Shown in pieces: positions 8,701 through 29,189 of a stretch of DNA of 36,981 nt. Source of the stretch: a virus; the IMG/VR virus record IMGVR_UViG_3300018469_000001, positions 64,001-100,981 of that record; one strand, given 5' to 3'. The stretch's first letter is position 1. Each line of letters opens with the position of its first letter. Under the pieces are notes generated by a model that saw nothing but the letters and a program-made list of their open reading frames with translations, had not been told where the DNA came from and searched no databases. Both the position numbers and the translations under genes were made by a program.

Positions 8701-10629
8701 GAACGCCGCGACACCGCCCGGGAGGCAGCCCAGGCCGCCGCACAGGCCGCGCAGGCCGTCCGGGAGCAGGAAGCCCACGCCCAGGCTGTACGCGACGCAG
8801 AGGCCGCCACACAGGCCGCCGCCGAACGGGCCGCCCAGGCACGGCAGGCAGCCCGCACCGACGCCATGATCGCAGCCCAGGCCGCATCGGTCATCCCGCA
8901 GCCGGTCGACCGGGAAATCCGCGACGCCGCCCGGGTGCTCGGCCCCGACGGGCTGCGCCGCCTGTACGGCGACCCGCAGGTAGACGAGTGGCTGGCCGGC
9001 GTGCCCGGCGACCCGGCCGACGCGCCCGACTCGGTCGTGGCCACCGCGCTCGGCAACGGCGTCATGCGGCTCGAGCCCAGGCAGCGGCTGCGGGCGTTCG
9101 ACGCCGCCGCCGACGTCGAAACCGGCGACATGGCCGGCAGGTCCGACAAAGAGCTGCTCGACATCATCACCGACGGTGTGATGGCCACCGGCGACGACCG
9201 GCAACAGGCCAAGGCGCGGGGCCGGGTAGCGCACCGGGAGCGGACCCGCCGCGCCATCGAGCAGGAGCGGTTCAAGGGCCGCCGGGCGTTCTCCGAGTGG
9301 CTGGCCCGGGCCCGCGTCGACAACCCGGCCGACCTGACCGACGCCGAACTGGAGACCGCCCCCGGCGTGGTCGCCGCACTGTCCGACGACGATGACCCGG
9401 CGCTCGCCGGGCGGCTGGCCGATCTCCGCGCCGAAGCTGACCGGCGGATGGCGTCTGCCCAGCAGCGCGCCGACGACCTGGCCGCCGGCCCGGCCGGCCC
9501 GGCCCGGCTGGCCAACCCCGTCGAACATCTGGCCCGGCTGCAACGCATGGTCGAGGGCTACGGCAGCAGCGGCGAGGCTCGCGACGCCGCCGACCGGCTG
9601 CGCCGGGCCCGCGCCGTCACGTTCGGGCTGGGCGAGGACGCCACCGATAAGGACATCAACACCGCCGCCCGCAAGGACCCGCGGCCGCTACCGGACCAGG
9701 CCGCGCAGATCATCGCCTGGTACCGGCATTACGGCCGGTTCGCCGACCTGCCCGACGACCTCCCCGACTACCGGCAGTGGCTGCGCGGCCCGGCCGACGA
9801 AGACGTACCCGACACCCCGGAGCCGCTGCCCGCCGCGAACGTGTCCAAACCCGACGAGGTGTGGGACCAGATCAAGGCCAACGCCCAGCAGGAGTTCCAA
9901 GCCGACCAGTACGAGACCGGCCGCCGGCTGCTACGTGCCATCGGCCGCGCCTACCGGGTACCAGTAGAAGACGACATCCCGGCCACCCTCGAGGGGCTGA
10001 CCGAACTGCAGCGCCGGGTCGGCGCGGCGCTCAACGCCGACCAGCGCACCCCCCGGCAACGGGCCGGGTTTCTGCTGGCCGAGTTCCGCCGCCTCGCCGC
10101 CGAGGACGGCATCGACCCGGCCGACACCCTGCGGTACGGACCGCCCGACAAGGCCGGCCGCACACCGGCCCGGGCCAGCTTCCGCACCTCCACCCCGGAG
10201 CAGGAGCAGCGCATCGACGCCCTGGTCGCCCGCGGCTGGGACTGGCTCGACGCGTACGCCGAAGTCCACGGCGCCGACTCCGACGCGCTGCGCCGCGAAC
10301 GGGCCCGCGGCGTCTCTGGCGGGTCAGAGAAGGCGATGCGCCAGCAGTACGCCGAATGGGTGGCCATGCAGGCCAAAGAGGCGGAGGCCGCCACCGCCGG
10401 GCACATGCTGACCAAGAAAGCCGAGACCCGCGGCGTGGACGTCGTCAAGCTGTTCTCCGGACCGTGGTCGACCGCCCGCGCCAACGCGTCAGAGGAGCTG
10501 CTGCGCTGGTGGGCGGAACACCCGCGGATGACCTACGCCGAGTGGAAAGCGATGCTCGCCGGCGGGTCCGACGCCCGGGCCGCTCGAGAGAGGATGATCG
10601 GGGCAGGGAAGGGGAACGAGTTCGCATGA
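2776..10629 (+). CDS. Giant polyvalent-type protein: ADP-ribosyltransferase, PI3/4-kinase-like and ParB-like domains (2617 aa)
   Basis: The start is GTG 2776 behind GGAGAGGGGG. Residues 13-22 read HPRDARGRFT, a tag common at the start of phage head-associated proteins. Residues 75-200 look like an ADP-ribosyltransferase: R116/R117, S144-T145-S146 and catalytic-type E180. Residues 376-520 and 812-965 are two copies of one helical domain (LDPLDRERVR). Between them, at 540-785, is a PI3/4-kinase-like domain with candidate ATP lysine K578, loop D671-R672-H673-T-G-N676 and metal D689-H-G. Small SH3-like pieces start near 1184 and 1405. A ParB-like domain spans 1563-1680 with HNGNHR at 1636-1641. 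An Ala/Gln coiled coil covers 1983-2035, and a helical C-terminal module ends the protein. Linkers are Pro/Ala-rich. The position between portal and MuF suggests a virion protein delivered with DNA (inference). Domain calls rest on motifs only. Confidence 0.85.
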   Translation: MAARRSKWNPSLHPRDARGRFTRSSTRVMKPADTKRARSATQGFQPAKIGGAGAAGGWLTRNGGAKPAQADTALGRYLAGGWRDTNTEIRRSKTPPPDVAEIDAEFAGLPEDLVLRRQVPLAMFAHIPVDQLVGMKVRDAAYASTSIDHPEAGPSAPDAVTLHIAAAAGTPAYVHADAGEILLARDTEIAIARAEPNGQGGWDLYGVVIPKTAVTRDQPAAGDRDQPAGGDTPTPAEDETTTPPAGDTDTGDEAPQAPAAAASVPAGAAAPPARQSGPGGEPTTSPPDTAGGGDGGRGAAVGGPRAAADQPRPNPREDPEGWARSLTDAELERWSATRGALPRVKKAIAAEQARRAEQDQGAQTPAAGTRTPAAGSLAALDPLDRERVRIAVEDHAGRIFRNPLIGGSTDNVGRYVAEGHLGALTERYGLSQVWRAVAQTVEERPELLERSDADADQGARERGEAAELLSTQAAGQVRDGDFAAALATIDQAERLDPDHRAGVGRSWDELRTIVARRQEETSRKPAGSATPRESVAGRAQLDAAIESGTSSTEKLDGGGIAQSVDLVTFNDGTQAVRKVTKDSKTIERSGVDQADAEEVTALIAAAAGAKVPAVHRAGDTETLTAYVDGQTGMEAMSVLGLGAAHTESLRLANTDPGRLLGLVDVLTDNPDRHTGNWIIDQAGDPVGIDHGNAFLYSGDPGSAGDNSWKPFAAHYMQWDAATGMPSGWADNDLTPADVQTVRERLAALRPEFDRMGHGDWHDFAMGRLDAVGAHATGDRNRIADGGTPAPAGTPGQPAGETPGQRIDPPTGGALAGLDPLDRERVRVAVEDKAATIFRTPFMGGSESNVARYTAEGRELAALTDRHGLATMAAAVRQIIDQRPGLLQRSDADVEAHRQARRQAAEARANTGADLAAAGDFTAARAEIDAGERIDPTWVFTSPGGPPLNWTAVRALVDDMERDRAAADAPEPAGDATPVADPTTPATDPASQMTATAASPRRTLLAADSGTDGAFLYFGTGDRPTDVGVPVSAMQLGRGNRSTVVFNDYVDSKPQGGEHRMGDRVWLAPLPPADVVDSYVAGIRDERRGGRPLDTGQPAAPPAAAEVPAAPEADPNGGMTVVKTRTGWAVKGGEPFYLAERKTKRAAQQWIDDAMTARRALADHEARKKQSAADLMERVGLEEVRPSQLAEGDVFTYKLGGGYTATVTAVENLGNGMVMVRLTPGPDAPDDAMPHLLLRDSDPVFRLQDPGRAQVWQDMIAADRAEAARELADLERGDQAGAPAPSAGTRVSVEDLDADEQGRALSGQTFARTARIDQDPDSTRLRMVRARVGNRELRVHDPASGDQLGTITEQRDGGWTATTTDGREMGAGLDVEAAIGALENPDPAGPADSDVPAADQPAAAGRPVSELQRGDYVTVTGRPPGGEQQTTRTGYVTAVMATGRSNEQMVSLSEFPIGAGRTELVIAAPTAPTVPATPPADPDVVLWRNPTNGRPVPNPSQVSIVRGQVVRDTRREEAVRAQLAQRAGTDAPTGRDTPATPPQAGEGGGWPDQSGGGDPPDGVELYPMDRLRAELKYGTDGFNYGRPSGWKLLLNRAVEDPRTPEWMASIAENGMQPIQVTFDDDVPGSTGRQAELHNGNHRLALALLMGVQDIPISSRDLENWDDEGGKVAVRLGGSPVTDMPDGAADVIARAQAIVARRRQADAALNADTPGEAGTADTPAPAAGPPEQLDLAGGATPFDASRTEVGLPERPQVGRERAIAATQQLGLFASDEREMDGQVGLLDALLNMPAGDTAGPPPDAPPRPLPEAPGQDNAGEELPAEPTSIVPDDLSNWSDEQLADLFRDVSGVESVDQLDEPGLQRIADEWDRREQAMADLVATVPDDLTALGDGDVETLYARLTGELGTLDHDAVRRVEADLDRRTAEQAAEAGNAPKRALLARPVADLTDEEIETAAGYAADLGDEPAIVRVFAEWERRDTAREAAQAAAQAAQAVREQEAHAQAVRDAEAATQAAAERAAQARQAARTDAMIAAQAASVIPQPVDREIRDAARVLGPDGLRRLYGDPQVDEWLAGVPGDPADAPDSVVATALGNGVMRLEPRQRLRAFDAAADVETGDMAGRSDKELLDIITDGVMATGDDRQQAKARGRVAHRERTRRAIEQERFKGRRAFSEWLARARVDNPADLTDAELETAPGVVAALSDDDDPALAGRLADLRAEADRRMASAQQRADDLAAGPAGPARLANPVEHLARLQRMVEGYGSSGEARDAADRLRRARAVTFGLGEDATDKDINTAARKDPRPLPDQAAQIIAWYRHYGRFADLPDDLPDYRQWLRGPADEDVPDTPEPLPAANVSKPDEVWDQIKANAQQEFQADQYETGRRLLRAIGRAYRVPVEDDIPATLEGLTELQRRVGAALNADQRTPRQRAGFLLAEFRRLAAEDGIDPADTLRYGPPDKAGRTPARASFRTSTPEQEQRIDALVARGWDWLDAYAEVHGADSDALRRERARGVSGGSEKAMRQQYAEWVAMQAKEAEAATAGHMLTKKAETRGVDVVKLFSGPWSTARANASEELLRWWAEHPRMTYAEWKAMLAGGSDARAARERMIGAGKGNEFA

Positions 10630-12679: not shown

Positions 12680-13031
12680 CGAACGGCGCCGGGTGAATGG
12701 AAACCCGGCGCCGCCCCCTTGCACCCGCCCCCGCAAGGGCCGGATGACGACCGTACCGACCCGGCCGCCGTGATCGGAAGAGCACCAAGGACGCGCCCGC
12801 TGATAGCGAACGGCGCCGGGGTTGCCCTGTAGGGCTCACCCGACGCCGTCCTCTTGAGCGTTCTTCATGTGCCATGCCGAGACTGACTGAGAGCCTCGCC
12901 GGTGAAGAGCCACACCGCCAGGTAAGGCGGGTGACGCCACACCGGCGCCCGCGCCGCCCGGAACCGATTGAAGGCGACGCGGCCACGAACGGTACCGGCC
13001 CGACCGGCATGATCGGAAGAGGGGGCGCGGG
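12680..13031 (+). other. Non-coding structured stretch with duplicated pieces
   Basis: No convincing gene lies here. The 17-mer tagcgaacggcgccggg occurs at 12677-12693 and again at 12804-12820, each beginning a hairpin (the second, 12811-12848, is imperfect: cggcg...gccct/agggc...cgccg). A 30-nt block at 12753-12782 recurs at 12992-13021 with four differences, and the second copy ends in the ribosome binding site of the MuF gene. Between them, 12897-12904 (cgccggtg) pairs with 12940-12947, enclosing a smaller caccgcc/ggcgggtg hairpin. It looks like a duplicated gene-junction with an extra structured insert. A leader RNA or a scar of a lost gene are both possible. Confidence 0.45.
12685..12712 (+). 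terminator. Perfect 10-bp hairpin after the small-gene run
   Basis: The arms ggcgccgggt (12685-12694) and acccggcgcc (12703-12712) pair perfectly around an 8-nt loop, gaatggaa. The hairpin begins 5 nt after the stop of the previous gene. The sequence that follows is gccccctt, not a T-run, so it is an imperfect intrinsic terminator or an RNA-stabilising hairpin. Confidence 0.6.
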
Positions 13032-14111
13032 GTGGCTGTCACCAACCGGACCCTGCGACTCTTGCGGGCGCTGCGCGTCGACATCGGCGACCAGGCCGAC
13101 GACGTCGTCCGCGACCTGACCGCCGCATGGGTCAAGACGTGGAACACCCTGTCCGGCGAGTGGGACCGGGCGCTGGCCGACGCCGTCGCCCTGTACGTGC
13201 GCACCGGCGCCTGGCCGCCGCCGTGGCACCTCGCCCGCCTGGAGCGGCTCGTCGCCGCCCAGCAGCAGACCGCCCAGGCGCTCGCCGCCCTGGCAGCCAC
13301 CGCCAACACCACCGCAGGGTCCGGCGCCACCGAAGTGGTTGCCGCCACCGCGGCCGCCGAGCCCGCCATCATGGCCTCGCAGCTCCCGGCCAGCCTGGCC
13401 GCCGCCGCGGCGGAAACGTACGCGGCGAACGTGGCGCCGTCCGCGCTGGAGTCGATCGCGTTGCGGGCCCGCCAGCAGATCCACGCCGGCACCTGGCCGC
13501 TCACCGAGCAGGCGGTCGAGGCGATGCGCCGGTCCCTGATCACCGGCGTGGCCACCGGCGCCCACCCGACCGAGGCGGCCGCCGACATGCTTCGCCAGGT
13601 CGAGGGGGTTTTCAACGGCGGACTCACCCGGGCGATCAACATCGCCAGGACGGAAATGCTCGACGCCTACCGGGCCACGTCCGCCGCGGTGCACGAGGCC
13701 AACGCCGACGTGCTCGACGGCTGGACCTGGATCGCCACCCTCGACCGGCGTACCTGCCCGAGCTGCTGGGCGATGCACGGCACCCACCATCCGCTAGAAC
13801 AGGCCGGCCCATGGGACCACCAGCAGGGCCGATGCGCCCGCATGCCGAAGGTCAAATCGTGGGCCGAGCTGGGCATCCCCGGCGTCGAAGACGACGACCT
13901 CACCCCGGACGCCGAAAAGGTGTTCACCGCGCTCCCCCTCCACGAGCAGCTCGCGGTGATGGGGCCGGGTCGGCTCGCGCTGCTCAACACCGGCCGCGTC
14001 CAGTGGGCGGACCTGGCGGTACGCCGCGACAACCAGGCGTGGCGTCCGTCGTACGTGCCCCGCCCGGTGCGGGAGCTGGAGCGGCTCGCCAACCGGCGGC
14101 AGGTGGCCTAA
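13032..14111 (+). CDS. MuF-like minor head protein
   Basis: MuF-type proteins sit inside the portal vertex and are needed for head morphogenesis or injection. The product is 359 residues. The first 200 are helical and Ala-rich. The signature lies late: ARTEMLDAYRAT, GWTWIATLDRRTCPSCWAMHG, HP, then GPWDHQQGRCARMP, with C242/C245 and the following His and Cys forming the usual MuF C-terminal motif. GTG 13032 is preceded by GAGGGGGCGCGG. Here MuF is separated from the portal by the giant gene and the small-gene run, where many phages have the two adjacent. A hairpin follows the stop. Confidence 0.9.
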   Translation: MAVTNRTLRLLRALRVDIGDQADDVVRDLTAAWVKTWNTLSGEWDRALADAVALYVRTGAWPPPWHLARLERLVAAQQQTAQALAALAATANTTAGSGATEVVAATAAAEPAIMASQLPASLAAAAAETYAANVAPSALESIALRARQQIHAGTWPLTEQAVEAMRRSLITGVATGAHPTEAAADMLRQVEGVFNGGLTRAINIARTEMLDAYRATSAAVHEANADVLDGWTWIATLDRRTCPSCWAMHGTHHPLEQAGPWDHQQGRCARMPKVKSWAELGIPGVEDDDLTPDAEKVFTALPLHEQLAVMGPGRLALLNTGRVQWADLAVRRDNQAWRPSYVPRPVRELERLANRRQVA

Positions 14112-14117
14112 CCCAGC

Positions 14118-14149
14118 GATACGCCCCGACCATCGGGCCGAGGCGTATC
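14118..14149. terminator. Bidirectional hairpin between converging genes
   Basis: The arms gatacgcc (14118-14125) and ggcgtatc (14142-14149) pair perfectly and enclose a second short ccga/tcgg pairing. It lies between the MuF stop (14111) and the end of the minus-strand gene (14183), so it can end transcription from both sides. No clear T-run is seen on either strand. Confidence 0.55.
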
Positions 14150-14182
14150 CGTCGAGATGGGGCGGGGTCAGCGGCGTAGCGG

Positions 14183-14485
14183 TCAGAGTCGGTGGGCGCG
14201 CTCGGCGGGGACCTCGTCCAGCCAGGTCACGTCGCAATCGGCGAACTGCTCGCGGTTGGCGACGCGCACCGAGACGCGCTCGCCCGGGGTGAAGGTGCGC
14301 TCGTGGCCGTTCTGGTAGGTCCACACGACCTCGGCTCGGTCGTACTTGCCGGACGCGTCCCGCAACGTGCGGGTGATGACCTCCACTGATTCGAGGGTGA
14401 AGTTCCGGCCGGCTTCCGGGGTGGTCGTGGGCCAGAGCTGCACGCTGGTGGGGGCGGTTTCGGCGGTAACCAGTGCGTCGAACAT
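14183..14485 (-). CDS. Minus-strand small protein A (QLWPT family)
   Basis: This 100-residue protein is read against the direction of the structural genes. ATG is at 14485-14483 with GAGGAG about nine bases upstream. It begins MFDALVTAETAPTSVQLWP and continues with a beta-rich core, VVWTYQNGHERTFTPGERV, then REQFADCDVTWL. The next upstream minus-strand gene encodes a clear paralog with the same start and the same W-T-Y-Q / F-x-x-G-E-R / REQ / V-x-W-L spacing. No known family is recognised. The pair probably shares the promoter at 14819-14847. A moron-type accessory gene is the best guess. Confidence 0.7.
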   Translation of the reverse strand: MFDALVTAETAPTSVQLWPTTTPEAGRNFTLESVEVITRTLRDASGKYDRAEVVWTYQNGHERTFTPGERVSVRVANREQFADCDVTWLDEVPAERAHRL

Positions 14486-14526
14486 CGGGGTTCTCCTCGC
14501 GTCTCGGTTGGGGGCGGGTTGGTTGG

Positions 14527-14766
14527 TCAGAGCCAGACGACGTCGTCGCCGGGGAGCTGCTCGCGGTTCTCGACGCGGACCACGATGCGCTCGCCCTTGG
14601 CGAAGGTGCTGCGGCCGCCGTCCTGGTAGGTCCAGTGGACCCGGGTCTTGCCGCCGAGGAACGGCTCGACGGTGACCTCGGTGAGGGTTTCACCGGCCGG
14701 CTTGCTGGTGGGCCAGAGCTGCACGCCGGTCGGGGCTGCCTCGGCGGTGATCATCGCGTCGTACAT
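14527..14766 (-). CDS. Minus-strand small protein B, paralog of A
   Basis: This 79-residue product starts at ATG 14766-14764 with GAGGGAG upstream; the frame continues further upstream, but that part runs through the promoter element and is not coding. It begins MYDAMITAEAAPTGVQLWP and ends VHWTYQDGGRSTFAKGER, VRVENREQLPGDDVVWL, matching protein A along its length but shorter by about 12 residues at the C-terminus. It is first in a two-gene minus-strand unit, 41 nt from protein A. The function is unknown. The fold is probably a small beta barrel (inference from alternating strands). Confidence 0.7.
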   Translation of the reverse strand: MYDAMITAEAAPTGVQLWPTSKPAGETLTEVTVEPFLGGKTRVHWTYQDGGRSTFAKGERIVVRVENREQLPGDDVVWL

Positions 14767-14818
14767 GTCTGGCTCCCTCGTCTCGGGTGGCGGGTGTCCG
14801 GCCCGACCAACAACAGGG

Positions 14819-14847
14819 ACGTTACACGACCAGCAACTAGACCACAA
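14819..14847 (-). promoter_or_regulatory. Minus-strand promoter within 30-bp repeat, copy 1
   Basis: On the minus strand, TTGTGG (14847-14842) and TAACGT (14824-14819) are separated by exactly 17 nt and the -10 is preceded by TG at an extended position. Transcription would run into the genes at 14766 and 14485. The whole 30-nt core 14819-14848 recurs at 18417-18446 with a single difference, in the same orientation upstream of the other minus-strand gene. Conservation in both places is the main support. Confidence 0.65.
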
Positions 14848-14864
14848 CACCCCGGGGGTTGCTC

Positions 14865-15515
14865 GTGCTGCCCATCACCTCGATCTACGACCTACAGGTC
14901 GGCGACCTCGGCTTCGCCTCCATCAAAGGCCGGGCCGGCGCCGGCGTCCTCGCCGGCCAGACTGCCATCGACCTCGCCGCGCTGCTCCGCGGCCGCCGCG
15001 TCGAAAACGCCGGCTGGATCACCCACGCCTTCATCGTCGCCAGCATCCCCGGCGACGGCACCGCCGAGCTGGTCGAAGCCATGCCCGGCGGCGCCCGCAC
15101 CGTCTGGACCGAGGGCGGCGGCGTCGACCACAACGCCTGCCGGATCGGCGCCGGCTTCGCCTACGTGCGGCTACCCGCCGACGCCGGCCCACCCGGCTGG
15201 CAGACCGCCGCCGGGAAAGCCGCACTGAAAATGCGCGGCACCCCGTACGGCTTCGCCCAGTACGCCGCGCTGGCCGCGCTCACCCTCACCGGCGGCGACG
15301 CCGCCAACCACCGCGGCCCGCTCGCCCGCTACGTCAACCGTCGCAGCCCCGCCACCGGCCGACCCGTCCAGGTCATCTGCTCCCAGCTCGTCGACGAGGC
15401 GCTGCGCCTGGCCGGCGTCGCCCTGTTCGCCGACGGCCGGCCGCCGCAGTACGTCACCCCAGGCGGCCTGTTCTGGCAGGCCGCCCGGCTCGGCGACGTG
15501 TGCATCTGCTGCTGA
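14865..15515 (+). CDS. Permuted papain-fold (NlpC/P60-like, YiiX type) peptidase or amidase
   Basis: This 216-residue protein starts at GTG 14865, six bases after GGGGG. Its pattern is that of permuted NlpC/P60-like enzymes: VGDLGFASIKG near the start, then GWITHAFIV with candidate catalytic H54, then RGTPYGFAQYAALA, and VICSQLVDEALRLAG with candidate nucleophile C172. In this group the His precedes the Cys, as here. Such enzymes cleave peptide or lipid-linked amide bonds; in phages a cell-wall role is often assumed. It sits between head genes rather than tail genes, directly behind the divergent promoter element, and the natural substrate cannot be told from sequence. Confidence 0.7.
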   Translation: MLPITSIYDLQVGDLGFASIKGRAGAGVLAGQTAIDLAALLRGRRVENAGWITHAFIVASIPGDGTAELVEAMPGGARTVWTEGGGVDHNACRIGAGFAYVRLPADAGPPGWQTAAGKAALKMRGTPYGFAQYAALAALTLTGGDAANHRGPLARYVNRRSPATGRPVQVICSQLVDEALRLAGVALFADGRPPQYVTPGGLFWQAARLGDVCICC

Positions 15516-15555
15516 CCGTCCACGCCCGGCACGACCCGATCAGAGAGGGGGCGGG

Positions 15556-15834
15556 ATGGCCGCCGACTCGCCCAGATACGCGACCACAGTGGCCGACGTG
15601 GTTTCCACCGTCACGTTCGGCCAGGACTACGAGGTAGTCGAGATCGTCAACCTCGACGGGGTCGAGGCGTCCGCCCGCGTCGGCGCCACCGCACCCGAGG
15701 CCGGCGCCACCGGCACCGAGGTACTCCCCGCCGCCATCGGCGTCCTGCGGCTGCCGGTGAAAACCTCCGGACCCACCGTCGTCAAGCTGCTGTCCTCCTC
15801 CTCCGGCCGGTTCTGCGTGCGGGGCACCGAATGA
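15556..15834 (+). CDS. Small beta-rich structural protein
   Basis: This 92-residue product starts at ATG 15556 behind GAGAGGGGG. Alternating strands (TTVADVVSTVTF, YEVVEIVNLDGV, TEVLPAAIGVLRLPV, PTVVKLLSS) suggest a compact beta sandwich. Proteins of this kind, with V-x-V-x-N-x-D-G, V-x-P-A-A-x-G and T-V-V-K-L-x-S spacing, are frequent as small virion or decoration components in actinophages. It overlaps the next gene by 4 nt (ATGA), pointing to a joint product set. The exact role is unknown. Confidence 0.62.
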   Translation: MAADSPRYATTVADVVSTVTFGQDYEVVEIVNLDGVEASARVGATAPEAGATGTEVLPAAIGVLRLPVKTSGPTVVKLLSSSSGRFCVRGTE

Positions 15835-16418
15835 CCGGCCCGGCCTACTCGCCGTTCGCGCCGGCGGCGACCCCGGAGTACGGAGGCAACGGCGCCGCCG
15901 CGGCCGGCGGCATCGAGTCGCTGTCCCGGTTCGGGCTGACCACCCTGACCGGGCAGTCGTCTGGCCGGCTGTGGGTGTCCTACGTGACCGCCGCCGCGTC
16001 CGGCCCGATCGGCCGGCTGATGATCGCCAGCGGTGACATTGCGGCGCTGTCGTGCACGCTGGCCCGCATGGGGCTGTTCACCGTCTCCGACGACGGCTCG
16101 CTCACCCTGGTCGCGCGCACCGCCAACGACACCACTATCGCCGCAGGCACGTTCACCGCCTACGACAAGGTGTTCGCCACCGCCGGCGGCTACCCCGCCA
16201 CCTACCCGATCACCCGCGGCCGCCGCTACGCGCTGGGATTCCTGCAAGTGGCCGGCACGCCGGCCAGCCTGCAAGGCATGTCCGTGCTCGACGGGGCGGA
16301 ACCGCCGGTGGCGTCGCGGATCGTCGCCGGGCAGGCCGACATCGCCGCCTCGTATGCGGTCGGCTCCCTGTCCGCGCACTTCCTGTCGCTGTACGTCCGC
16401 GGGCTTCCGCCGACGTAA
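15831..16418 (+). CDS. Fibre-like beta-sandwich structural protein
   Basis: The product is 195 residues. After a Gly/Ala-rich N-terminus, residues 28-150 contain SGRLWVSYVTA, RMGLFTVSDDGSLTLVART, NDTTIAAGTFTAYDK and RGRRYALGFLQVAG. This block, with GL[FY]TV...LTLVA.TANDTT and RYALG, recurs in minor tail and receptor-binding proteins of actinophages, where it forms a jelly-roll-like module. Here it lies in the head half of the cassette, between the papain-fold enzyme and the protease, so a head fibre or a displaced adhesion protein is possible. The ATG overlaps the previous stop. Confidence 0.68.
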   Translation: MTGPAYSPFAPAATPEYGGNGAAAAGGIESLSRFGLTTLTGQSSGRLWVSYVTAAASGPIGRLMIASGDIAALSCTLARMGLFTVSDDGSLTLVARTANDTTIAAGTFTAYDKVFATAGGYPATYPITRGRRYALGFLQVAGTPASLQGMSVLDGAEPPVASRIVAGQADIAASYAVGSLSAHFLSLYVRGLPPT

Positions 16419-16427
16419 GCCCAGCCG

Positions 16428-16440
16428 CCGATAATATCGG
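16428..16440. promoter_or_regulatory. AT-rich 13-bp palindrome, possible operator or -10 region
   Basis: The sequence ccgataatatcgg is a perfect palindrome of 6-bp arms about a central a, and it contains TAATAT, one of the few A/T-rich stretches in the window. It lies 10 nt after the previous stop and 51 nt before the next ATG. No well-spaced -35 box is evident. Confidence 0.35.
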
Positions 16441-16490
16441 CCCGATCTTTAACGACCGGCGTGTTTGCGCAGGTCAAGAAGGGGAACGCC

Positions 16491-16709
16491 ATGGCCACCG
16501 ACGACACCGCCGACCAGCGGACATTCAGCGAGAAGGAGCTTGACGACGCGCAGACGCTCTACGCGGCGTACGGGGAGACCACCGGGGGGCTCAACTTCCG
16601 GGGCGAGCCGATGCCCGACTGGGATGGGCTCGGCGGCACCATTCAGTGGGCGTGGGTCAATTCCGGCGCCAAGCTACGCGCCAAGGTGGAAGCCGAGCAG
16701 GCCGGCTAG
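16491..16709 (+). CDS. Small hypothetical protein
   Basis: This 72-residue frame starts at ATG 16491 with AAGAAGGGG upstream; an upstream ATG at 16461 lacks a ribosome binding site. It reads MATDDTADQRTFSEKELDD, LYAAYGETTGGLNFRG, WDGLGGTIQWAWVNSGAKLR. It looks like a short helical protein with a tryptophan-rich centre. The family is not recognised. It ends in a CTAG shared with the stop of the opposing minus-strand gene (3-nt overlap of stop codons), so the two units converge tail to tail with no terminator between them. Confidence 0.6.
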   Translation: MATDDTADQRTFSEKELDDAQTLYAAYGETTGGLNFRGEPMPDWDGLGGTIQWAWVNSGAKLRAKVEAEQAG

Positions 16710-18367
16710 GCCGCGAACAGGGCGAGCTGCCCCACCTCGGCCGGCTCACCTTCCGGCGCGTCCGACGTGGCTGCTGGGCCGCGGCGCGCGAGGGTTATGC
16801 GGCTGTCCTTGCACAGCGCGCCCACGCAGGTCGGCCCGTCGCCGACCTGATAGGCGATCTCGACCCGGCCGGCGTCCAACGGAACCGCACCCGACCTGAT
16901 CGTGATGGGGCGCCGGGACTTCATGCCGAAGCTGCCCGGGACCGCTACGTCGCCGGTGGCCAGGTCCCGGCCGTCCACCACCTCGGCGAGCACGTCGACC
17001 AGGTCGACCTGCCCAGAAATTTCCGGAGCCGCCGCCGGCGTTGGGCGCCGACCCGTGGCCACCGGACGAAGCTGCCGGGCGGTGCCAGCCATCAGGGCGA
17101 GGCGGGCGTGCTGCTCGCCGATCCCCCGGGTGCCTTCCAACGGGCGTTCCGCGGCCGGCCACACCCTGCGGATCACGTCGGCGTACGACCGGCCGGCGAG
17201 CACCGTCACCCGCGACGCGCCCAACACGCCCAGCGCGAACGCCTGCCCGGCGACCTGCCCGGGGGTGACGCTGCCGGGCTGGCCCATCCGCAGGTCGTAG
17301 GGCTCGATCACGGTCTCCGGGTCGATCAGGCCGTACTTCGCCGACAGGATCAGCAGCAGGCCGCCGCGGGCGGCCGCCGCCCGGCGGGTCGCGGCGTGGT
17401 AGCTGCCCACGTACATCTCACCGGCCGGGGCCGGCCGGTCCAGCTTCTTCCCGCCGCACGGCACGATGATGATTTCGTCGGCGGGTGCTTCCGCGGCACG
17501 CTCGGCGATGATCCGCGCGTTGCGCTGCTCGCGCTCCCGCTCGGCCCGCTCGCGTGCCTCGGCCCGCTCCGTCTCCGCGCGCTCGGCGGCCGCAGCCGGG
17601 TCGAGCTCGACGCCGCGTTCGCCGGCGACCCGGCGCATGATGGCCAGCCGCCGGTCGAGGCGCTCGAGTTCGTGGTTGGCCTTGCGCCGGTTGCCGGGGG
17701 CCGCACCGGTCGTGATGTCCGTGACGCGCTGACGGCCGGGGCTGCTGCTCTCCGCCGCGTACTCGCGGACCAGCTCGGCGTCGGTCATGTCCTCGATCAG
17801 GCCGGTCTGGCGGTAGGTGCGGCGGGCCGGGGTGGGCGGGGAGTACATCGGGTCGCCGTCGGCCAGGCCGCCGCCGTGCTCGGTGACCGGGGTGGTCGGC
17901 GCCGCCTCGTACGCCCGGTAGTCGGGCTCGAGTTCGGCGACCCGGGCGGTGATGGCCAGCGCGAGCGCGCCGTGGCCGGCCTGCGCGGCCGCGAACATGC
18001 GCACCCGCAGGGTGTTGTAGACCAGCGCGACGGTGGCGCCTGACCGGCCGTTGGTGGCCCACCGCATGTGGTCTTCGACGCCTTGCTCGAGGCGGGTGAC
18101 GGCCGGGCCGGCGTCGGCGATCTGCCCGGGGGTGATCTGGGCGGCCGCGGCGAGCCAGATCAGTGATGAGCCACCCAGCTCGGCGAGAACTTCGCCGGTC
18201 GCGGCGTCGACGGCTTCGACGCGGGCGCCGGCGGCGATGAAGTCGACGACGCGGCCGGAGCCGCTGATCTCGCGGGCGGTGCCGAACCAGCAGGCCCTGG
18301 CCGGGGTGCCGTGGCCGCGGTAGGTGCCGCGGGTGGGTCGGGCTGCGGGGCCGAGGTTTTCGATCAT
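16706..18367 (-). CDS. 553-aa minus-strand protein with DUF6884-like domain
   Basis: ATG 18367-18365 lies behind GGAGG at a good distance; the frame extends upstream only through the promoter element. Residues 1-90 are beta-rich and include DFIAAGARVEAVD and LGGSSLIWL, recalling the F-x-x-G-x-R-V and V-x-W-L ends of the small minus-strand proteins at 14183-14766. Residues 90-250 are helical, and 255-298 form a charged coiled coil (ERAETERAEARERAERE). Residues 298-400 carry IIIVPC304GGKK308LD, SAKYGL (342-347) and PYD (356-358), the pattern I associate with DUF6884, a family of unknown role in phages and bacteria. The end (GQLALFAA) is short and hydrophobic. A host-directed or nucleotide-related enzyme is possible, but no reaction is assigned. 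Confidence 0.75.
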   Translation of the reverse strand: MIENLGPAARPTRGTYRGHGTPARACWFGTAREISGSGRVVDFIAAGARVEAVDAATGEVLAELGGSSLIWLAAAAQITPGQIADAGPAVTRLEQGVEDHMRWATNGRSGATVALVYNTLRVRMFAAAQAGHGALALAITARVAELEPDYRAYEAAPTTPVTEHGGGLADGDPMYSPPTPARRTYRQTGLIEDMTDAELVREYAAESSSPGRQRVTDITTGAAPGNRRKANHELERLDRRLAIMRRVAGERGVELDPAAAAERAETERAEARERAEREREQRNARIIAERAAEAPADEIIIVPCGGKKLDRPAPAGEMYVGSYHAATRRAAAARGGLLLILSAKYGLIDPETVIEPYDLRMGQPGSVTPGQVAGQAFALGVLGASRVTVLAGRSYADVIRRVWPAAERPLEGTRGIGEQHARLALMAGTARQLRPVATGRRPTPAAAPEISGQVDLVDVLAEVVDGRDLATGDVAVPGSFGMKSRRPITIRSGAVPLDAGRVEIAYQVGDGPTCVGALCKDSRITLARRGPAATSDAPEGEPAEVGQLALFAA

Positions 18368-18416
18368 CGCCGTGTCCTCCGTCTCGGTGTCGGGGTGTCC
18401 GGCCCCAACAACACGC

Positions 18417-18445
18417 ACGTTACACGACCAGCGACTAGACCACAA
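18417..18445 (-). promoter_or_regulatory. Minus-strand promoter within 30-bp repeat, copy 2
   Basis: On the minus strand, TTGTGG (18445-18440) and TAACGT (18422-18417) are 17 nt apart, with TG just before the -10. It faces the 553-aa gene whose ATG is about 50 nt downstream. The 18417-18446 core equals 14819-14848 except for one base in the spacer. Flanking sequence (gtgtccggccc...acaac) is also partly shared. Confidence 0.65.
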
Positions 18446-18497
18446 CGCGACGGGGCGGTACACGCGCCGCGCATCCGACCGGCAGGAAGGAACCACC

Positions 18498-18743
18498 ATG
18501 GCAGCACCACGACGAGGCGCATACATCGGCGACCTGCCCCAGGGCGTCGCCGTGGCCGACGCCGCCGCAGCGACCGTGTCCGTACCGGCCGCCATCACCG
18601 GCGGCGAGGTCCCGACCGAGGCCGAGCACAACGCGCTACGCACCGCCGCGGTCGCGCAGGCCGCCGACGCCGCCGCGCTGCGCACCACCATCAACGCGCT
18701 GCTCGACGCACTGCGCGATCAGAACATCATCGCCACCGCATAG
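18498..18743 (+). CDS. Short head-fibre-like protein
   Basis: This 81-residue product starts at ATG 18498, preceded by AGGAAGGAA. The first half is Ala/Val-rich (GDLPQGVAVADAAAATVSV). The second half is one long helix, TEAEHNALRTAAVAQAADAA followed by LRTTINALLDALRDQNII. A helix ending in N-x-L-L-x-x-L-R-x-x-x-[IL]-I is characteristic of phage head fibre-type small proteins (Phage_fiber_2-like), where it trimerises. The match is by pattern only. The gene lies directly upstream of the membrane protein and protease genes and diverges from the 553-aa gene. Confidence 0.6.
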   Translation: MAAPRRGAYIGDLPQGVAVADAAAATVSVPAAITGGEVPTEAEHNALRTAAVAQAADAAALRTTINALLDALRDQNIIATA

Positions 18744-18806
18744 ACCGCCACCACCTCACCTGAGGTGCCGAAACAGGAAGCCCCCCAGGTCACCCCGGGG
18801 AAAAGG

Positions 18807-18851
18807 CGGCGGCGGCCGTAGGCGCTGGTAGGTCGCCCACGGCCGCCGCCG
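18807..18851 (+). terminator. 13-bp hairpin upstream of the membrane protein gene
   Basis: The arms cggcggcggccgt (18807-18819) and acggccgccgccg (18839-18851) pair perfectly around a 19-nt loop. A smaller hairpin, cacctca/tgaggtg, precedes it at about 18751-18766. No T-run follows, so it could equally be a leader structure for the gene at 18875, whose AGGAGG lies 12 nt after the stem. Confidence 0.45.
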
Positions 18852-18874
18852 TCGCCCAGGCCCAGGAGGTGCCC

Positions 18875-19120
18875 ATGCGCCGCGCGCTGGCCTGGTGGCG
18901 TCGGGCCGACAAACGGGTCCGCATGGCCGCCGCGGTACTCGCCGCCGTGCTGTTCGGCTGGCCGGCCACCTCCACCGCCCAGGCGCTCGGGCTGCCGGTC
19001 TTCGAGCAGGTCATGTTGGCGCTGTCCTGGCTGGCCCCGGCCATCACCGCCCTGGACCTGCTGTTCACCGCCCAGCTCCACGCCAAGCAAGACCGCGACG
19101 CCGGCGCCGCCGGCCAATGA
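18875..19120 (+). CDS. Small two-helix membrane protein
   Basis: ATG 18875 lies five bases after AGGAGG; GTG 18869 is inside the ribosome binding site. The 81-residue product has a positive N-terminus (MRRALAWWRRADKRVRM), a hydrophobic helix AAAVLAAVLFGW, a short loop and a second, longer one, VMLALSWLAPAITALDLLF, then a charged tail. This is the size and topology of a holin, but small membrane proteins of unknown role also occur in phage head clusters, and no endolysin is next to it. I call it only a membrane protein. Confidence 0.65.
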   Translation: MRRALAWWRRADKRVRMAAAVLAAVLFGWPATSTAQALGLPVFEQVMLALSWLAPAITALDLLFTAQLHAKQDRDAGAAGQ

Positions 19121-19139
19121 CCGGCCCGGGAGGTCGACC

Positions 19140-21290
19140 ATGTCCAACAAGCGCAAGACGCGCATCCCCGGCCGGTACGAGCGGCCGGCCCACCTGCGCG
19201 CCCCCCTGGGCGACACGCTCGGCGAGGCGGGCATCCGCGACGGCTTCGTCTCAGCGCTGCGCATCAACGCCGCAGGCCGCCGCACGGTGGCCACCGTCGA
19301 ATCCGACGACGACCACGACCGGGAGCTGGAAGAGGCTCTCGCCGATCTCGACGACAACCAGGTCGACGCGCTCGGCGTGCTCGCCGACACCGACGAGGCC
19401 AGCCGGTTCGACAAGCTCGCCGGCAAGCTGGCCGGCAAGGGCGTGAAGGACCCCAAGGCGCTGGCCGCGCACATCGGCCGCAAGAAGTACGGCAAGACGG
19501 CCATGGCGAAGATGGCCGCCGCCGGCCGCAAACGCAAGGGCAAGAAGACCGGCGGCACCAGCGAGGCGTTCGCCGAGGCCGCCGCCGGCGGCATCCACGA
19601 GGCCACGCCGGGCGCCCAGCCGGGCACCTACGTCATCGACGTGATCAAGTCGGGGTGGAATAAGGCCAGGAGCCGCCACTACCCGGCTGAGGTGCTCGAG
19701 CGTGACGTTCCCAAGGTGTACCCGCGCGGCACGCAGATGTTCATCGATCATCCGACGCAGTCGGAGGCCGACGACCGGCCGGAACGGTCCGTGTCGACGC
19801 TGGCCGCGGTGTTCACCGATACCCCGTGGGCGGTCAAGGAAGACGACGGCAGCGTGACGATGCGCACCACCGCCCGCGTGTTCACGCCCTGGCAGCCGCT
19901 GATCGGCGAGGCGTGGCCACACATCGGAGTGTCGATCAACGGCATCGGCAAGGGCGACCACGGGCAACGCGAGGGCCACTACGGGCTGCTGATGGAAGAG
20001 CTGACCCACGGGGCGTCCGTCGACTTCGTCACGAAGCCCGGGGCGGGCGGCCGGGTGGTCGGGCTGCTCGAGTCGGCTGCGGCGGCGGCTGACTCGCCGG
20101 CCGGCCGGGCCGCGGTGCTGCGCGAGGCCGGGTCGTTGGGCGCGTTCGCCGAGTCCCGCATCCACCTCGGCTTCACCCAGCTCGCCGACGAAATGTACGG
20201 CGACGGCCGGCTCACCCGCGACGAGCGGATCACCATGTCGGGGGCGATCGGCGACGCCCTGGCCGCGTTCGTCAGCCGGCTCGATGCTGACGCGCCGCAG
20301 CTCTACCAGCGGTCCCGGTGGGCCGACCCGGACGGGCAGGAGACGACCGAGTCCGCCGCGGTGGCCACCCGCGAGGCCACCGCCGAGCAGACCCGGCAGG
20401 CGATCAGCCGGGCGCTGTCCGACCAGTACGCGACCGCACCCGCCCAGCCAGGCGGGCCGGCGCACTACTGCTGGTACCGCGACCACGATGAGGGCCGCGG
20501 GCTGGTGTGGTTCGACGCCTCTACCGCCGACACCGGGCACAACACCTGGCAGCAGTCCTACCAGATGGCCGCAGACGGCGAAGTTGAGCTGCTCGGCGGC
20601 CGCATCGAGGTCATCCCCGAGGTCGTGTACCGGCCGGCGCCGCCGGCCGACGGCGGGGGCGACACGTACGAGGCCGACCCCGGCGCCGGGGTGGCCCATC
20701 ACCGCATCACCGAGACCACCGACGGCGACCAGCCGGCGGGTAGCAACCCGGGCCCCGCGCCCGAGACCACCAAGGAGAGCGACATGGGCGAGAAGACCGC
20801 CGACGTCGTGGCGCGCGAGGCCGCCGAGGCCCTGGCCGCTACGAGCACGAAGGAGCGCGACGAGGCTCGCGCCGAGCTGGCCCGCTACCGGGCCGGCGAG
20901 ACTGCCCGGCCGATCCTGGATCGGCTGCTGACCGAATCGGCGCTGCCCGCGGCCGCGTACGACAAGGTGCGGGCCGACTTCACCGCCGACCGGCTGCCGC
21001 TGACCGAGTCCGGTGCGCTGGACGAGACCCGGCTGCGGACGCTGGCCGAGGCGTCGATCACCGCCGAGGCCGCGTACGTGGCGAAGCTCCAGGAGGAGAA
21101 CGGCGCGGGCCGGGTCGCTGGCATGGGTGCGACGCCGGTGCGGGCCGGGTCGGCGCTGCCGGCGTCGTTCGGCGGGGTCACCCGGGAGGCCGACGTTCCG
21201 GACAAGGCCGTCCAGGAGGCGCTAGCCGAAATCTACAAGCGGCGCGGGCTGGTGCCCGAGGCCGCGATCGCCGCCGGCCGCGGACGCTGA
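19140..21290 (+). CDS. Capsid maturation protease fused to scaffold
   Basis: This protease cleaves the scaffold and capsid precursors during head maturation. ATG 19140 follows GGGAGG, and the product is 716 residues. Residues 100-135 carry AAHIGRKKYGKTAMAKMAAAGRKRK, a basic tag seen in many actinophage proteases. Residues 155-310 are the protease fold, with FIDHPTQSE (H204) and GVSINGIGKG (S265) as candidate catalytic His and Ser. Residues 440-500 hold a WYRDHDEGRGLVWFD / TWQQSYQM insert domain also known from other phage proteins. From residue 549 the scaffold-like part begins: a charged helical stretch that has its own start (see separate entry). The fused protease-scaffold layout is like lambda C/Nu3. 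Confidence 0.88.
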   Translation: MSNKRKTRIPGRYERPAHLRAPLGDTLGEAGIRDGFVSALRINAAGRRTVATVESDDDHDRELEEALADLDDNQVDALGVLADTDEASRFDKLAGKLAGKGVKDPKALAAHIGRKKYGKTAMAKMAAAGRKRKGKKTGGTSEAFAEAAAGGIHEATPGAQPGTYVIDVIKSGWNKARSRHYPAEVLERDVPKVYPRGTQMFIDHPTQSEADDRPERSVSTLAAVFTDTPWAVKEDDGSVTMRTTARVFTPWQPLIGEAWPHIGVSINGIGKGDHGQREGHYGLLMEELTHGASVDFVTKPGAGGRVVGLLESAAAAADSPAGRAAVLREAGSLGAFAESRIHLGFTQLADEMYGDGRLTRDERITMSGAIGDALAAFVSRLDADAPQLYQRSRWADPDGQETTESAAVATREATAEQTRQAISRALSDQYATAPAQPGGPAHYCWYRDHDEGRGLVWFDASTADTGHNTWQQSYQMAADGEVELLGGRIEVIPEVVYRPAPPADGGGDTYEADPGAGVAHHRITETTDGDQPAGSNPGPAPETTKESDMGEKTADVVAREAAEALAATSTKERDEARAELARYRAGETARPILDRLLTESALPAAAYDKVRADFTADRLPLTESGALDETRLRTLAEASITAEAAYVAKLQEENGAGRVAGMGATPVRAGSALPASFGGVTREADVPDKAVQEALAEIYKRRGLVPEAAIAAGRGR
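20784..21290 (+). CDS. Scaffold protein from an internal in-frame start
   Basis: An ATG at 20784 in the protease frame is preceded by AAGGAGA at 20772-20778, with five bases between, which is as good as any start in the window. It would give a 168-residue protein: MGEKTADVVAREAAEALA, then a coiled coil KERDEARAELARYRAGE, and a basic end GGVTREADVPDKAVQEAL / EIYKRRGLV. Helical, charged and C-terminal in the protease gene, this is what a scaffold looks like. In lambda, the Nu3 scaffold is made from the C gene in exactly this way. Production of the short form is inference from the ribosome binding site. Confidence 0.65.
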   Translation: MGEKTADVVAREAAEALAATSTKERDEARAELARYRAGETARPILDRLLTESALPAAAYDKVRADFTADRLPLTESGALDETRLRTLAEASITAEAAYVAKLQEENGAGRVAGMGATPVRAGSALPASFGGVTREADVPDKAVQEALAEIYKRRGLVPEAAIAAGRGR

Positions 21291-23903: not shown

Positions 23904-25778
23904 GTGGCCAGGCTCTACACCCTCGGCTGGGAGATCAGCAGCGTCTCGTCCGGGCTGGACGTCCCCAACCGGACGACCACCTCGGCGACCCTGTCCACGT
24001 CGGTGTTCCGGTCCGGGCTGCGGTCCGGGCGGATCAGCTCGCTGGTGTCGGCGACCCGGTCCGGGTGGGGCGGGCAGTTCGTATCCGCCCTGTCCGACGG
24101 GCCGTACTACGCCCGGTTCGCGTTGCGGGTCGCCACCGCACCCAGCGCCGCCAACATGATTTTTGCGTTCATCGCCGGCGCGTCCGTGGCCGCCACCTCC
24201 GCCAACGACGGATCGATCAAACTCAACTCGGATCGGACGTTGGCGCTGTTCGCCAACGCCTCCCAGGTCGGCAGCGCCAGCGCCGCCCTGACCCTCGACA
24301 CCTGGTACGTCGTCCAAGTGCTGTACGACAACAGCCCGGCGTCCGGGTCGAAGGTGCTGCGCGCCTACCTCAACGGTGTCGAGTTCGCCGGCACCGCCGT
24401 CAGCACAAACGTGGGCGGTACGACCAACGGGTTCGCTATCGGCGGCAACCTGGTCGCCGAGGCCCAAACCCAAGGCGACTGGCACTTCGATGACCTGGCC
24501 ATCAACGACGGCACCGGCGGCGTCGAAGACGGGCTCCCCGACCACAACGGCAAGGTCATCTACCTGCGGCCGGACGGCACCGGCGACAGCAACCAGTGGC
24601 TCGACACCGCCGCGGCTGCCGGCTCAGCCAACAACTACCAGCTCGTCGACGAAACCGCCCCCAACGACACCACCGACCTGGTCCAGACGGTCACCAACAA
24701 CCACCTGGACCTGTACGCCATGGAGTCGGCCGGGGCCGCCGGCATGTCCGGCGGAGACGCCGTCAACGTCGTCCAGGTGTACGGCCGCAGCCGCAACAAC
24801 GTCGCCGACGCTACGACCGCCTGGTCGCCGGTCGTGGTCAAGACCACCGGCGGCACCCAGTCGACCGGCACCGCGTACGTGCCGAACACCACGACGTGGC
24901 GCACCGGCTCCGTCCAGTCGGCCAGCCAGATCGCACCGAACCACACCCTGTACGTCGATCCGGACGGCGCGGCGTGGACGCAGGCGACGCTGGACACCAT
25001 GCAGGTCGGCCCCAAGCTGACCGTGGCCGGCACCAACCGGGCGCAGGTGTCGGCGATCTGGGCGGTGGTCGACTACACGCCGACCAACAGCTACGCCGGC
25101 GACGTCGCGGAGGAAACCGACACCGCGGTCACCGGCGCCGGGGTCAAGACCACCACAGCCGGAGTCGCCGCCGAGACGGACACTGCGGTCCCCGGCGCCG
25201 GGGTCAAGACCACCGCGGCCGGGGTGGGCGCCGAGACGGACACCGCGACCGCAGGGGTCGGCGCGAAGACCGGCACCGCCGGCGTCGCCGCGCAGCTCGA
25301 CACCGCCGTCACCGGCGCCGGGGTCAAGGGCACCCCGGCCGGGGTGGCAGCCGAGACCGACACGGCGGTCACCGGGGCGGGCACCAAAACCACCGCTGCA
25401 GGGGTCGGCGCCGAGGCCGACACCGCAGTCGCCGGCGCCGGGTCGAAGACGACCACGGCCGGGGTCGGCGCGCAGCTCGACACCGCCGTCACCGGGGCAG
25501 GGGTCAAGGGCACCGCGGCCGGGGTGGCAGCCGAGGCCGACACGGCGGTCACCGGCGCATCGGCCGGCACCGCGGACGGCGACATCGCCGCCGAGGTCAA
25601 CACCGCCATCACCGGCGCCGGCGTCAAGACCACCGCAGGCGGGGTCGCCGCCGAAGTCGACACCGCGGTCCACGCCGCGCTGACCCACGTCCCGGTGCTC
25701 ACCGCGTACGTGCGCACCGGCACCACCACCGCAGCCGCCCGCAGCGGCACCACCACGTCAGGAGTGAGACGCCGATGA
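23904..25778 (+). CDS. LamG-like protein with ten 20-residue repeats
   Basis: This 624-residue protein starts at GTG 23904, five bases after GAGGAGGGG. Residues 1-220 look like a LamG/concanavalin-type jelly roll (LGWEISSVSSGL, PYYARFALRVAT, TWYVVQVLYDN, LRAYLNGVEFAG, WHFDDLAIND). Residues 220-395 form a second beta domain. From about residue 400 to 592 there are ten tandem repeats of 20 residues with consensus GVAAETDTAVTGAGVKTTAA, followed by a Thr/Ala-rich end. The repeats would form a regular extended rod or solenoid. LamG-like modules often bind sugars, so a head-attached or neck-attached adhesion protein is a fair guess. It precedes the connector gene with a 4-nt overlap. Confidence 0.75.
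   Translation: MARLYTLGWEISSVSSGLDVPNRTTTSATLSTSVFRSGLRSGRISSLVSATRSGWGGQFVSALSDGPYYARFALRVATAPSAANMIFAFIAGASVAATSANDGSIKLNSDRTLALFANASQVGSASAALTLDTWYVVQVLYDNSPASGSKVLRAYLNGVEFAGTAVSTNVGGTTNGFAIGGNLVAEAQTQGDWHFDDLAINDGTGGVEDGLPDHNGKVIYLRPDGTGDSNQWLDTAAAAGSANNYQLVDETAPNDTTDLVQTVTNNHLDLYAMESAGAAGMSGGDAVNVVQVYGRSRNNVADATTAWSPVVVKTTGGTQSTGTAYVPNTTTWRTGSVQSASQIAPNHTLYVDPDGAAWTQATLDTMQVGPKLTVAGTNRAQVSAIWAVVDYTPTNSYAGDVAEETDTAVTGAGVKTTTAGVAAETDTAVPGAGVKTTAAGVGAETDTATAGVGAKTGTAGVAAQLDTAVTGAGVKGTPAGVAAETDTAVTGAGTKTTAAGVGAEADTAVAGAGSKTTTAGVGAQLDTAVTGAGVKGTAAGVAAEADTAVTGASAGTADGDIAAEVNTAITGAGVKTTAGGVAAEVDTAVHAALTHVPVLTAYVRTGTTTAAARSGTTTSGVRRR
25102..25680 (+). repeat. Tandem 60-bp repeats inside the LamG-like gene
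   Basis: About ten copies of a 60-nt unit run in frame. A higher-order 180-nt period is visible: the units around 25261-25380 and 25441-25560 are far more alike to each other than to their direct neighbours (both contain cgcagctcgacaccgccgtc). This points to recent multiplication of three-unit blocks. Confidence 0.85.
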
Positions 25779-28686: not shown

Positions 28687-29189
28687 CGCAGCCGATCCCC
28701 ACCGCCGTCACGACCAACGGGACCATGCTGGCCCTGTTCGTCGAGACGCTGGCCGACTACACCGCGCCCACCGTCGCCGAGCTGACCGCCGGCTCCGTCA
28801 TCGACCTGACCTGCTACATCACCGGCGAGGGTCTGACCACGGAGACGACTGAAAACAACGTCGAGGATCCGCGGCTGTGCTCGAGGCAGATTTACGAGGC
28901 CCGCGGCGACTTCACCAACACCCTCGAGCTGACGTACGTGTTCAACCCGGCCAGCCCAGCCGACGACGAAGCCCGGCTGGGGATGCCGCCGGGCACCGCC
29001 GGCTACATCGCCATCCGGTGGGCGCGTGAACACGAGCTGGCGATCGCCGCCGGCCACGAGTTCGACGTGTACCCGGTCGAGATGGGCGAGCAGCGCAAGC
29101 AGACCCCCGCCCGAAACGGCGTCCACCGGATCATGCAGAAGCCGTTCGTCGTCGGCGAGGTCGCCCGCGACGTGGCCGTCATCGCATAA
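28683..29189 (+). CDS. Major tail (tube) protein
   Basis: The tail tube is built from hexameric rings of this subunit. The 168-residue product begins MTQPIPTAVTTNGTMLALFVE and shows GSVIDLTCYITGEGLTTETTENNVEDPRLCSR, YEARGDFTNTLELTYVFNP, GTAGYIAIRWAREHE, and FDVYPVEMGEQRKQTPARNGVHRIMQKPFVVGEV. A strand-rich domain with the central helix-free layout and the place just ahead of the chaperone pair fit the phage tube protein fold. The ATG overlaps the previous stop, and a strong hairpin follows. Confidence 0.85.
   Translation: MTQPIPTAVTTNGTMLALFVETLADYTAPTVAELTAGSVIDLTCYITGEGLTTETTENNVEDPRLCSRQIYEARGDFTNTLELTYVFNPASPADDEARLGMPPGTAGYIAIRWAREHELAIAAGHEFDVYPVEMGEQRKQTPARNGVHRIMQKPFVVGEVARDVAVIA

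Follow-up and report, generated by a model that had tools for sequence, protein, structure and literature searches.

At this locus two nearly identical promoter-like sites face minus-strand genes inside a block of structural genes, which raises the question of what the two sites are and what they may control. The window, that is, the whole stretch of 36,981 nucleotides (nt) analysed here, comprises bases 64001–100981 of the 100,981-bp virus record IMGVR_UViG_3300018469_000001. The original prediction held that the 30-mers at 14819–14848 and 18417–18446 differ by one base, read TTGTGG-N17-TAACGT on the minus strand and lie just ahead of minus-strand genes in an otherwise plus-strand block. Direct comparison confirmed the single difference; the hexamers and their spacing are matched exactly in both 30-mers, both precede minus-strand genes, and the structural block around them is otherwise plus strand. 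On balance, the sequence favours reading both sites as copies of a dispersed SigA-like phage promoter with a built-in asymmetric operator, which would probably answer to a shared regulator. The two copies are as follows (distances to the start codon, here and below, are counted from the last base of TAACGT):

14819..14848 (record 78819), minus strand: promoter-like element copy, TTGTGG-17-TAACGT; start codon 14766 after 52 nt
18417..18446 (record 82417), minus strand: promoter-like element copy, one base different; start codon 18367 after 49 nt

Twenty second-order Markov shuffles of the window yielded no pair of 29-mers this alike. In the window itself, 29-mer pairs with at most one difference fall on four diagonals, the 14819/18417 pair among them; the other three are repeats spaced 180, 60 and 81 bases (at 25118–25347, 25125 and 32770), which lie within plus-strand open reading frames (ORFs). 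Taken alone, the TTGTGG and TAACGT hexamers are weak evidence, with 0.61 matches expected at up to two mismatches and two matches reached in 14 of 100 shuffles.

A family of copies across the record

The two window sites are members of a wider family, with at least seven copies in the record. Pattern searches revealed seven clear copies (record positions):

8189, minus strand: start codon after 65 nt
27512, minus strand: start codon after 49 nt
28388, minus strand: start codon after 49 nt
35555, plus strand: start codon after 48 nt
60981, minus strand: start codon after 39 nt
78819, minus strand: start codon after 52 nt
82417, minus strand: start codon after 49 nt

A start codon in the same direction is thereby found downstream of all seven, at 39–65 nt. 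When position and strand are drawn at random, a start lies 35–70 nt downstream in 2.1% of draws, so that seven out of seven has a probability of about 2e-12 (genes for these statistics were called by a simple in-house caller, from GC by codon position). The reversed pattern, used as a control, gave no match in the main whole-record searches and four weak matches with one shorter pattern.

Two likely degenerate copies lie on the minus strand. Copy 62336 was added by a weight-matrix scan (score 26.2), and copy 39110 was reached via a leader motif and not via the promoter pattern (score 22.9). Among 25 shuffles a single one scored as high as 28.7, followed by 18.6, so that each of these copies is likely, not certain. 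The scan covered about 74 of the 101 kb; the other 27 kb or so were covered by pattern searches only, which are able to miss degenerate copies.

Further candidates were set aside. The minus-strand match at 43238 is weak (3 mismatches) and has no -10 hexamer, and none of the spacer-only matches (31200, 43776, 62378, 99701, 88820 and 41760) has both hexamers. At 43776–43790 (-) of the record (G000), 15 nt are identical to the spacer core of copy 82417, in an intergenic position beside integrase genes and without promoter hexamers. This site was not adopted as a free operator, given that it belongs to an inverted repeat and that its score was exceeded in 2 of 20 shuffles. A plus-strand site at 8225, divergent from copy 8189, shows TAAAGT and a CCGAGACG leader, but its score is within those of the shuffles.

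Architecture of the element

Over the seven copies, mean pairwise identity is 87% for the 29 bp and 84% for the 17-bp spacer, with 32–43% for the 30-nt flanking blocks and 30% for random pairs. The spacer is conserved as strongly as the first hexamer, and similarity drops sharply outside the 29 bp. In an ordinary sigma-70 promoter the spacer is free to drift. Conservation beyond the need of a plain sigma promoter therefore requires either that something besides the sigma factor reads the spacer or that the copies are young, and youth is disfavoured because the flanks are unlike each other. A clear dyad was not seen in the element; TGGTC appears twice, 12 bp apart, and a direct-repeat or asymmetric site is possible.

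These flanks also bear on an alternative in which plain host-type promoters recently spread, either together with cargo genes (morons) or to new positions, their spacers being alike from youth and read by no regulator. Consistent with it, the window copies serve minus-strand islands among plus-strand genes, as cargo would be, and GTTGTTGG just downstream of the element is common to copies 60981, 78819 and 82417. The near-random identity of the flanks, however, means that the copies are not young as blocks, and the units behind them hold dissimilar genes, among them a plus-strand run with an FtsK-like neighbour. We consider recent spread unlikely.

As to promoter class, actinobacterial promoters of the SigA/HrdB type combine a -35 TTGnnn and a -10 TAnnnT at 16–18 nt. 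TTG and TAnnnT stand 17 nt apart in five of the seven clear copies, and the element was counted as having this form; the degenerate copies keep both, with TACGTT at an 18-nt spacer in 62336 and TACCAT in 39110. One could instead suppose that the promoter is specific to the phage and that a sigma factor or activator encoded by the phage, from a family not recognised here, reads it; this has been suggested for the repeated motifs of Microbacterium phages that encode a sigma factor. Conservation across the whole 29 bp and hexamers far from the usual consensus would suit this idea, and Microbacterium phages of clusters EC and EI pair repeated intergenic motifs with a sigma-factor gene of their own (PMC7302621). 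Such a dedicated factor nonetheless seems quite improbable: the TTGnnn/TAnnnT form fits the usage of the host main sigma factor, and neither sigma-70 region 2 nor region 4_2 (PF04542, PF08281) gave a match in the record, which may be incomplete.

Units served by the element

Copy 35555 is on the plus strand within a plus-strand operon, and the element is therefore not a minus-strand device; this copy heads a gene run behind an FtsK/SpoIIIE-like gene and an endonuclease-like gene. Copy 8189 heads a run of five minus-strand ORFs, and copies 27512 and 28388 head two minus units. No relatives of the protein of 587 amino acids (aa) behind 27512 were found in viral contigs or phages. All four copies are placed outside the structural block, and the suggestion that the element marks the minus-strand genes of that block in particular is not supported.

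Within the structural half (57–101 kb) six minus ORFs were called, and four of them head element-bearing units: 60941, 62254 (degenerate element), 78766 and 82367. The remaining two are 78485, the second of a pair, and 62706, a doubtful 52-aa ORF without an element. Divergent from the minus unit of element 60981 there is a plus-strand gene with a ParB-like / DNA methyltransferase profile (L008:4042-4767, record 61042–61767).

The genes behind the window copies are:

14527..14766, minus strand: 79-aa ORF, first gene after element 14819
14183..14485, minus strand: 100-aa ORF, second gene of the pair, with its own CCGAGACG leader at 14495–14507
16706..18367, minus strand: 553-aa ORF with a DUF6884 domain (residues 299–423), behind element 18417

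They form minus-strand islands among plus-strand genes, each apparently provided with its own promoter-like element. The 79-aa and 100-aa ORFs are tandem duplicates of each other, and family searches found no protein family for them. The 553-aa ORF carries both described DUF6884 motifs, CxxxK and LSAxxG, and among PADLOC profiles matches PDC-M57A (3.3e-14) and, weakly, DpdC (1.2e-5). The DUF6884 family is related to YaaA, and a role in DNA repair has been suggested for it (PMC11701544).

Leaders, terminators and neighbouring repeats

The following features lie close to these genes:

14774..14786, minus strand: leader/ribosome-site motif of the CCGAGACG type ahead of the 79-aa ORF, with 2 mismatches to CCGAGACGNGAGG
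18376..18387, minus strand: leader/ribosome-site motif CCGAGACGGAGG ahead of the 553-aa ORF
14118..14149, no strand assigned: hairpin with a 14-bp stem and a 4-nt loop, between the convergent gene ends 14111(+) and 14183(-)

The CCGAGACG leader was rejected as a marker of the element: it also stands ahead of genes that have none (window 14485, record 21920) and turns up at 13966, and is thus a favoured leader and not a part of the promoter. The position of the leader is relevant to a third alternative, in which the element is no promoter itself but a stoperator-like site, where a repressor binds or transcription stops, or else an element of translation start. The copies are asymmetric and oriented with transcription like the L5-type repressor sites (PMC9283540), and always near start codons, like the Start Associated Sequences (SAS; PMC3203893). 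A distance of 39–65 nt is too large for a ribosome-site element, whose place is occupied by the separate leader, and the hexamer-like ends are kept at promoter spacing even in the degenerate copies; this explanation appears very improbable.

RNA structure beyond that of shuffles was not detected in the leaders. The hairpin has no T run, is not stronger than shuffles (z-score -0.87) and is absent from the list of the terminator scan; it is a possible two-way terminator. The same scan listed none behind 16706.

Elsewhere in the window, a plus-strand ORF of 2617 aa (2776–10629) directly follows the portal gene, at a place where the relative L012 has an ORF of 2896 aa, and a 60-base unit is repeated in ten tandem copies at 25036–25755, inside a plus-strand ORF of 624–629 aa. 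A non-coding stretch between minus and plus genes at record 28853–29065 (L007:4853-5065) is dense in direct and inverted repeats of the CCGGACCG type and is possibly a replication origin.

Other virus records

Among the matches listed for the 30-mer in blast searches (20 of 393 phage records and 20 of 24 plasmid records), only E values of 0.05 or higher were seen, and TTGTGGTCTAGTNGCTGGTCGTGTAACGT had no exact match in genome_contigs or viral_contigs. A looser pattern gave one match in viral_contigs (L011, 1804–1828), which is not in a promoter setting and was taken as chance.

Families of like kind were sought as 26-mer pairs sharing at least 20 matches, drawn from the regions upstream of called genes, in the parts of each record examined. 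The record's own stretches gave 33 pairs versus 0–2 in each of nine related sets (in the own and G003 sets, some pairs arise where stretches overlap or touch), and inspection by eye found no promoter-like pairs in the nine sets.

DUF6884-domain relatives occur in 114 records of the phage collection. No close relative of the whole 553-aa gene was found, and there was none in the 11 related loci compared. A capsid scan of genome_contigs returned one 26% relative in a metagenome-assembled genome (L030), which lies outside the records searched for the element.

The DpdA family inserts 7-deazaguanine into DNA. In G001, whose portal protein is 60% identical, three minus ORFs stand at a comparable place among plus-strand genes, and the first (L026:7486-8643, minus strand) encodes a protein of this family (Pfam E 3.9e-47). 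The sequence upstream of this gene is promoter-like and differs from the 29-mer; it shares the leader form GGCCGGACACC...CGAGACG.GAGG. The G001 protein showed no likeness to the 553-aa DUF6884 protein on comparison, and tblastn found no DpdA match within about 74 of the 101 kb of the present record. This place in the structural block may be a habitual site for DNA-modification cargo, a view drawn from two records.

Weighing of the evidence and proposed regulation

Several observations weigh against a promoter-operator shared across the record. The minus units 28664, 38549 and 42866 have no element; in copy 8189, the weakest of the seven clear ones, TTGTGG is replaced by TAGCGG, and in copy 28388 TAACGT is replaced by TTACGT. 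The hexamers fit the sigma-70 consensus poorly, and a scan of 13000–19500 with the E. coli-type consensus (TTGACA/TATAAT) returned no promoters, because each hexamer agrees with it at 3 of 6 bases only. At up to 3 mismatches the element was present in none of 25 other virus records (14 portal relatives, nine found by terminase, one by the DUF6884 domain and one by capsid), most of them fragments and none a close relative. The DUF6884-domain relative among them (L028, record G024; 50% over residues 299–424) lacks the element as well, which counts mildly against, and the evidence on conservation beside homologous minus genes leans slightly to the negative. Finally, a scan of genes near the integrase found no recognisable repressor or regulator.

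The prediction of a separately controlled gene set under one regulator is partly supported: the dispersed, near-identical, promoter-shaped sites that a single regulon would need were found; the regulator and the early or lysogenic timing are conjectural. The phage is probably temperate, since a tyrosine integrase match is seen at record 44664–45269 and the record search found no match to a serine recombinase. The record also encodes an FtsK/SpoIIIE-like protein of 771 aa (L007:7764-10079, record 31764–34079), and its pairing with a tyrosine integrase is, we presume, reminiscent of actinomycete integrative elements.

If the sites are indeed promoters with a built-in operator, the host RNA polymerase, carrying its main sigma factor (SigA/HrdB type), would start a few bases past TAACGT, and a phage or host regulator reading the conserved spacer would switch all units together. 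The DUF6884 gene and the small duplicated genes would thus obtain their own transcript inside the structural block. Late plus-strand transcripts would run antisense through these minus genes, and for this reason we infer that their natural time would be early infection or the prophage state, with the late operon off. A wider proposal, to which we give rather low odds, is that one regulator reading the spacer operator governs units throughout the genome of a temperate actinophage as a single regulon, among them antisense cargo islands of DNA-modification or repair-type genes in the late operon. The timing of changes to viral or host DNA would then depend on this switch, given the weak DpdC match of the DUF6884 protein here and DpdA in the relative. 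The family supplies a candidate set of co-regulated genes, defined by sequence and open to testing, in a probably temperate phage that is uncultured. It also offers a way into how genes that run counter to a late operon are expressed.

Comparison with known systems

The kind of element is known, having been described in other actinophages; its sequence was not met elsewhere in the searches made. Streptomyces phage phiC31, for example, has conserved early promoters.

Cluster A stoperators, which an immunity repressor binds, are 13 bp long, with more than 20 sites, some of them in mid-operon and away from promoters (PMC9283540). They resemble the present copies in being scattered, asymmetric and aligned with transcription in a temperate phage; here, however, the unit is 29 bp, and all clear copies are promoter-shaped and ahead of starts, which places them outside that class. 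The SAS of cluster K mycobacteriophages (13 bp) overlap the ribosome site (PMC3203893). Both are asymmetric repeats found where certain genes begin, whereas the element described here is 29 bp long, promoter-shaped and further upstream.

In halovirus HF2, near-identical intergenic repeats (class II, 29 bp) are promoters by reporter assay (PMC8707807). The likeness extends to the 29-bp length, but HF2 is an archaeal virus with archaeal promoters. Cluster O phages such as Corndog have a leftward SigA-like promoter, PL2, in the structural operon (PMC4351075). PL2 likewise is a promoter predicted to serve a gene that points backward within a structural operon; its mRNA, in contrast, is predicted to be leaderless, and the cluster O repeat is a 17-bp palindrome apart from promoters. 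Repeated upstream regions are also reported for Gordonia phage CaiB (PMC9302106).

Among Microbacterium phages, Quhwah (cluster EC) has 12 copies of an 18-bp repeated intergenic motif and MementoMori (cluster EI) five copies of a 30-bp one; the EC motif is asymmetric, in a single orientation throughout, and is placed 21–30 bp before start codons (PMC7302621). The present element differs in sequence, in its distance to the start (39–65 nt), in its use of both strands, in the presence of an integrase and in that no phage sigma-factor gene was found by the two families searched in this possibly incomplete record. In common with EC and EI, a repeated motif occupies small intergenic regions, in some cases ahead of genes inserted among structural genes, and its several near-identical intergenic copies are oriented with the downstream gene, here in seven of seven cases.

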